Positions 51,542-51,847 of a stretch of DNA of 64,000 nucleotides are shown here, piece by piece. The DNA lies in assembly GCA_016235815.1 (NCBI GenBank), contig JACRIM010000058.1:1-64000 (forward strand), given 5' to 3'. Under the pieces are notes generated by a model that saw only the letters and a list, made by a program, of their open reading frames with translations, searched no databases and was not told where the DNA came from. The position numbers and the translations under genes were made by a program. Source of the stretch: Planctomycetota bacterium. Lineage in GTDB: Bacteria; Planctomycetota; Phycisphaerae; UBA1845; UTPLA1. The first letter of the stretch is position 1; every line of letters starts with the position of its first letter.

Positions 51542-51615
51542 TGGGCCCGACAAGATTCGAACTTGTGACCTCGTCCTTATCAGGGACGCGCTCTAACCAA
51601 CTGAGCTACGAGCCC
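51542..51615 (-). tRNA. tRNA-Ile (GAU)
   Basis: The minus strand folds as a 74-nt cloverleaf: acceptor GGGCTCG/CGGGCCC, D-arm GCTC..GAGC, anticodon loop CCTGATAAG with GAT, T-arm ACAAG-TTCGAAT-CTTGT, discriminator A. No CCA is encoded. Ile then Ala is the usual 16S-23S spacer order. Confidence 0.95.
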
Positions 51616-51650: not shown

Positions 51651-51676
51651 AAAAAAACCACCGGCGACTGCGGTGG
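51651..51676 (-). terminator. Intrinsic terminator between the small RNA and tRNA-Ile
   Basis: On the minus strand CCACCG, CAGTCGC and CGGTGG form a 6-bp stem immediately followed by seven T residues. It stands 35 bp before tRNA-Ile, so it either ends the small RNA or attenuates the rRNA operon. Confidence 0.85.
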
Positions 51677-51814
51677 CATTCGGAGAACCGATTCACCACG
51701 CTCGGCAGCTAGGCCGTGGACTCTTGCGCCAAGTTTTCAAGCTTTCGTTCCAGTTCGGCTCTCCGCCTGTGCTGAAGGACTACTAGCTCTCCAACCGTCT
51801 TATGCGGTTGCAGC
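51651..51814 (-). ncRNA. Structured small RNA or leader of the split rRNA operon
   Basis: The minus strand between a promoter (51820-51847) and an intrinsic terminator (51651-51676) has no reading frame but strong pairing. A perfect 10-bp helix joins 51756-51765 to 51681-51690 (CGGAGAGCCG with CGGTTCTCCG, one G-U). CAACCG/CGGTTG (51792-51797/51805-51810) stacks on a CTGTGCTG/CAGCACAG helix (51811-51818/51767-51774). CCACG/CGTGG (51715-51719/51696-51700) closes an inner hairpin. Its loop CUAGCU (51707-51712) is exactly complementary to AGCUAG at 51783-51788, which would be a 6-bp pseudoknot. I match it to no known RNA class. It could be an independent sRNA of about 164 nt or an attenuating leader for tRNA-Ile-tRNA-Ala-23S-5S. 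Confidence 0.6.
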
Positions 51815-51819
51815 ACAGT

Positions 51820-51847
51820 AATTTAGTGCCCCTGCGCCCTGTGTCAA
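51820..51847 (-). promoter_or_regulatory. Promoter of the structured RNA
   Basis: The minus strand reads TTGACA (51842-51847), 16 bases, then TAAATT (51820-51825). The expected transcription start is about 51813-51814. No better promoter was found between here and tRNA-Ile, so it may also serve the rRNA genes by readthrough. Confidence 0.75.

Follow-up and report, generated by a model that had tools for sequence, protein, structure and literature searches.

The window, a 64,000-nt stretch of DNA from an uncultured planctomycete, carries on its minus strand an rRNA operon preceded by a leader. Genes for tRNA-Ile (GAU, 51542–51615 bp) and tRNA-Ala (UGC, 51410–51482 bp) were identified by ARAGORN and Rfam, and those for 23S rRNA (48164–51076 bp) and 5S rRNA (47839–47946 bp) by Rfam. 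The initial annotation had described an operon without 16S, and indeed the whole assembly (G000) yielded no 16S rRNA gene. This assembly is rated ~95% complete, and the absence is probably an assembly gap. In relatives the 16S gene is unlinked and located elsewhere in the genome, behind a promoter similar to that of the window and then a boxA-like element, with no comparable terminator. In the window a boxA-like sequence (TGCTCTTTGACA, 51286–51297 bp, minus strand) lies in the tRNA-Ala/23S spacer, as it does in relatives. The same spacer contains an inverted repeat of the type GAGACTAGAAAC...GTTTCTAGTCTC (51345–51400 bp); similar tracts repeat near tRNA genes of L007 and L092, and are perhaps a small mobile or processing element.

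A consensus scan of 51000–52600 bp detected a single promoter-like site, the annotated rRNA-type promoter TTGACA-16-TAAATT (51847–51820 bp, minus strand). The hexamers and the 16-nt spacer recurred in relatives, whose leader promoters matched this consensus at 9–10 of 12 hexamer positions. Transcription would be expected to start near 51814, giving a predicted leader RNA of ~160 nt (51813–51651 bp), and the distance from promoter to U-run was conserved in relatives. The leader ends in an intrinsic terminator, also as annotated, with a hairpin at 51677–51657 bp and a U7 run at 51657–51651 bp; the hairpin is conserved, with compensatory changes in relatives. tRNA-Ile begins at 51615, confirming the spacing of 35 nt.

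The leader had been put forward as a candidate for a new structured RNA, with a definite fold. As reported, it could not be assigned to a known RNA class: Rfam, T-box and other leader families included, gave no match up to E = 10. 6S RNA (RF00013) was rejected since the leader did not match it, and a 6S gene was found instead at G000:C37:77922–78113. The dense pairing was borne out only in part. The leader folded better than shuffled sequences, but just moderately (z = −1.94, 10 of 200 shuffles being equally good), so that structure alone is insufficient to carry the claim. RNAalifold recovered only the terminator as a common fold for the whole leader, and for the 5′ half, poorly conserved in sequence, no common fold was found among relatives. 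The listed helices other than the terminator were not generally conserved. The 10-bp helix (51765–51756/51690–51681 bp), described as perfect, exists with one G-U pair, but only the two nearest relatives retain part of it. CUAGCU (51712–51707 bp) and AGCUAG (51788–51783 bp) are both present, but the pseudoknot proposed between them had no counterpart elsewhere and was rejected, its loop being the end of a reading frame and its partner not being conserved. The conserved parts beyond promoter and terminator were an ORF with its Shine-Dalgarno (SD) sequence and stop codon, and a segment pairing with the terminator, so the proposal is not well supported.

Relatives in the same family were found by short DNA-search matches to both leader ends, immediately upstream of tRNA-Ile; across the order tRNA-Ile was used as an anchor, giving a picture less biased than the DNA search. 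Promoter, leader and terminator were present in 15/15 genomes of the window's own family (f1) with a detected tRNA-Ile, and also in members of f2, f5, f6 and f7, i.e. in five families of the order. The common layout was TTGACA-16-TANNNT, an SD sequence, an ORF of 9–20 codons (mostly with a TTG start), a stop codon 21–40 nt before the terminator, and tRNA-Ile. The distance from the −10 hexamer to the end of the U-run was 160–193 nt in nearly all relatives, the exceptions being genus g29 (69 nt) and the longer leader of L097. The f5 genome L095 was without the unit on inspection, and the inspected f4 and f8 genomes had the promoter and no comparable terminator. A T5 run with a weak hairpin was seen in L088. 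A T7 run upstream of tRNA-Ile in the f8 genome L113 was rejected as the same element, since its hairpin is weak and it lies upstream of the promoter.

A covariance model built from f1 only found f5 leaders at the expected place (E from 8 × 10−7 to 1 × 10−3), including a previously unseen one (G060), which lies 27 nt before tRNA-Ile, with tRNA-Ala and 23S further downstream. The model gave no convincing second copy away from tRNA-Ile. A promoter-pattern search of genome contigs returned no new leaders, only those already known and a chance match in a Clostridiaceae contig without tRNAs; in the rest of the class, a pattern search limited to some of the gap lengths and to a single tRNA start sequence did not detect the layout. 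In genus g29 (L164 of G033 and L171 of G045) the operon is split, with a lone tRNA-Ile and the 23S gene elsewhere. This tRNA-Ile has a 63-nt leader with a terminator and without an ORF, which counts against a translated attenuator; in G045, tRNA-Ala and a promoter-like sequence lie upstream of the separate 23S gene. The element thus accompanies tRNA-Ile first, and 23S where both share a transcript. In L177 (G022, family f7) 173 nt separate the leader-ORF-terminator unit from the tRNA-Ile downstream, and a promoter-like TTGACA...TGTATT occurs between terminator and tRNA-Ile, so that the unit may be separable from the tRNA.

In 22 of 23 leaders the stretch from terminator to tRNA-Ile, which can be as short as 14 nt, had no recognisable promoter. 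None was recognised from tRNA-Ile up to boxA in f1, f2 and f6, so in these families the 23S gene should depend on readthrough of the terminator. For the window's own family, a separate promoter of tRNA-Ile or 23S was rejected on these grounds; four f5 genomes have a 23S promoter of their own, which counts against attenuation of 23S there. A boxA-type rRNA antitermination leader, with boxA upstream of the terminator, was also rejected: no boxA was found between promoter and terminator, and it sits only after tRNA-Ala.

The initial annotation reported no reading frame in the leader. This was overturned by an ORF scan, which revealed a 14-codon ORF (51753–51709 bp, minus strand; LERKLENLAQESTA) with a CTG start and a TAG stop (51711–51709 bp). 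A GGAG SD sequence (51764–51761 bp) lies 7 nt before it, within the 10-bp helix. Counterparts were found in almost every terminator-bearing relative, and the anti-SD sequence of the relatives is canonical. The ORFs start 57–74 nt into the leader (the longer L097 excepted), run for 9–17 codons (20 in G028) and stop 21–40 nt before the terminator. The start codons were TTG (17), CTG (4) and ATG (1); the CTG of the window is a rare start codon and counts against a translated leader.

In a strict test, an SD sequence 3–10 nt upstream, an NTG start, 8–18 codons and a stop 25–40 nt before the terminator were required. Seventeen of 20 leaders passed, as against 1.1 expected; the resulting P of ~3 × 10−20 is optimistic, the limits having been set post hoc and the species being related. 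Limiting the start to ATG, GTG or TTG left 13 of 20 (0.9 expected). Two of the three leaders that failed have a 14- or 15-codon ORF in the same place with a poor SD sequence. A fairer check than the P-value came from control terminators and held-out leaders. Of 92 other terminators taken from these genomes, just 2 passed, and all three leaders that had not been used for setting the test, one of them from a new family, had the ORF, in one case with its stop slightly beyond the strict limit.

The short-ORF scan of the leaders showed the conserved stretch TCGGCGTGACTGCTGA to be the end of the reading frame. In most of f1 the ORF ends in Ser/Thr-Ala-stop, with Ala encoded by GCG, GCT, GCC or GCA and all three stop codons in use; these last positions vary as codons do, which we count in favour of a translated ORF. 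The leader peptides showed neither sequence conservation nor codon-position GC bias, which fits a role in positioning the ribosome rather than a functional peptide. They contained no clear run of one codon that would point to an amino-acid-specific leader, and Ile (16 vs. 10.6 expected) and Ala (28 vs. 19.3) were in mild excess. The ORF is presumably translated.

When the transcript was folded only as far as the terminator loop, about two thirds of the positions in the terminator's 5′ arm and loop were on average paired with upstream sequence in the species examined. In the window the 5′ strand of this putative antiterminator (51710–51694 bp, minus strand; AGCUGC at 51710–51705 bp and GUGGUG at 51699–51694 bp) starts inside the ORF stop codon, and its 3′ strand (51677–51666 bp) is the 5′ arm and loop of the terminator, making the two structures mutually exclusive. 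As pairing is possible between any two GC-rich segments, it was set against four controls: dinucleotide shuffles, leaders exchanged between species, the 60 nt immediately upstream, and other terminators from these genomes. In f1 the pairing of each leader with its own terminator reached −7.59 kcal/mol, 2.03 kcal/mol better than in swapped pairs (p = 2.5 × 10−4), and was equalled in 0 of 60 shuffles. The proximal segment stood out against all four controls, but the distal segment did not. No matched pairing was found in the next 60 nt upstream, nor was there species-matched pairing at the other terminators. Covariation, checked on the alignment, was evident as compensatory change in the terminator helix, but column-wise covariation of the distal antiterminator helix was not significant. 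The antiterminator thus appears well supported as a matched pairing, but less so base by base.

We consider the region to be probably a ribosome-mediated (leader-peptide) transcription attenuator of the tRNA-Ile-tRNA-Ala-23S-5S operon. An attenuator had been the second reading of the initial annotation, and the conserved ORF and matched antiterminator now support it well. The features expected of such a leader are an intrinsic terminator between promoter and first gene, present in the window and relatives; a short ORF with a ribosome-binding site upstream of the terminator, present in the window with a CTG start; and a mutually exclusive antiterminator at the ORF stop, present without significant column-wise covariation. 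The rRNA-type promoter would start transcription of the leader, and the nascent RNA would bear the SD sequence and the 14-codon ORF, whose stop codon extends into the 5′ strand of the antiterminator. This strand would compete with the terminator hairpin for the terminator's 5′ arm and loop, so that only one of the two structures could form at a time. A ribosome at the stop codon would mask the antiterminator strand, which the codon overlaps, favouring termination and release of a ~160-nt RNA. With the ribosome held upstream, or with none, the strand would be free to trap the terminator arm, and polymerase would read through into the tRNA and rRNA genes. This reading draws support from the common layout, the conservation of the ORF, the species-matched pairing and the lack of another recognisable promoter. 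A ribosome footprint imposed on the folding raised the terminator probability from 0.74 to 0.86 on average; the effect was small and uneven, so that the direction of the switch is something we infer, as is a response to ribosome availability or speed rather than to one amino acid. In the window, as in the two relatives nearest to it, the SD sequence lies in a helix with a pre-terminator segment, and this helix may link translation initiation to the switch.

The evidence for the antiterminator pairing does not involve translation. The choice between terminator and antiterminator might instead depend on polymerase speed, Nus factors or a bound protein or ligand, with the ORF incidental; the unconserved peptide, the lack of codon-position GC bias and the ORF-less terminator of genus g29 would agree with this. 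We regard it as unlikely, since ORFs with an SD sequence are found at a fixed distance from the terminator far more often than chance would give. Still less probable is an independent trans-acting sRNA that happens to precede the operon, readthrough being incidental or the operon promoter unrecognised. Most relatives retain the promoter, terminator and size, G022 has a promoter-like sequence between terminator and tRNA-Ile, and UpsM of Rhodobacter offers a precedent for an abundant sRNA made by leader termination (PMC5089854). Against this stand the poor conservation of the 5′ half in sequence and fold, the lack of a convincing second copy elsewhere, gaps to tRNA-Ile down to 14 nt, and genus g29, which retains little except the terminator. 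A constantly leaky, unregulated terminator, which would do no more than fix the amount of tRNA and 23S relative to other transcripts, is conceivable as a fixed correction because the unlinked 16S genes of relatives have boxA leaders without a comparable terminator, and f4 and f8 manage without the element, but it leaves the ORF and the species-matched antiterminator unexplained and is very improbable.

Ribosome-mediated attenuators with leader peptides are established in the trp, his and ilv operons. The leader attenuator proposed here would share with them a short ORF with an SD sequence, a stop codon before the antiterminator strand, an intrinsic terminator and structural genes downstream, but its targets are tRNA and rRNA genes rather than protein genes, and it has no single-codon run, a mild Ile/Ala excess and weak TTG/CTG starts. 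In E. coli rRNA leaders, control is by boxA antitermination, and leader attenuation is known from older work. Both systems would control elongation of an rRNA operon between the promoter and the first mature RNA; here, in contrast, there are a true intrinsic terminator and an ORF, and boxA comes only after tRNA-Ala. A study of one E. coli rrn spacer found no intrinsic terminator there and called the lack of strong terminators reasonable (PMC5179076). T-box leaders likewise couple a terminator/antiterminator choice to the translation machinery, but the present leader has an ORF instead and lacks a T-box match.

The literature search returned leader-peptide attenuators of other genes, and the nearest architectural parallel was UpsM of Rhodobacter sphaeroides, an abundant sRNA produced by termination in the 5′ leader of the dcw cluster (PMC5089854). 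UpsM resembles the present leader in having one promoter, a leader terminator, an RNA of ~200 nt, operon expression by readthrough and alternative pairing of the terminator, but differs in its phylum and sequence, in the protein genes downstream and in a possible small ORF that spans the terminator (PMC5089854). No leader-peptide attenuator of an rRNA or tRNA operon was found in the open literature, subscription papers lying mostly outside the search. The class of mechanism is already known, but for an rRNA operon it seems not to have been reported before and is likely to be new.

To our knowledge, the usual picture of rRNA operons is one of control at initiation (by ppGpp and NTPs) and through boxA antitermination, in which translation plays no part. 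A leader peptide placed ahead of tRNA and 23S genes would tie rRNA output directly to the activity of ribosomes, and would give the old idea of ribosome feedback regulation a concrete form that can be tested. More tentatively, and with rather less than even confidence, the leader ribosome may sense ribosome availability directly: by translating the leader, free ribosomes would block the antiterminator and shut off 23S and tRNA synthesis. If so, ribosomes would exert a built-in negative feedback on their own RNA in bacteria with unlinked 16S and 23S genes, and a leader attenuator would suggest how the two could be balanced.

A further shared feature is GTCG (51650–51647 bp in the window, minus strand), which comes right behind the U-run. 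It occurs there in 17 of 24 leaders, whereas 0 of 56 other terminators in these genomes have it. Being located past the expected end of the RNA, it would act in DNA or in readthrough RNA, or be a relic of something else.
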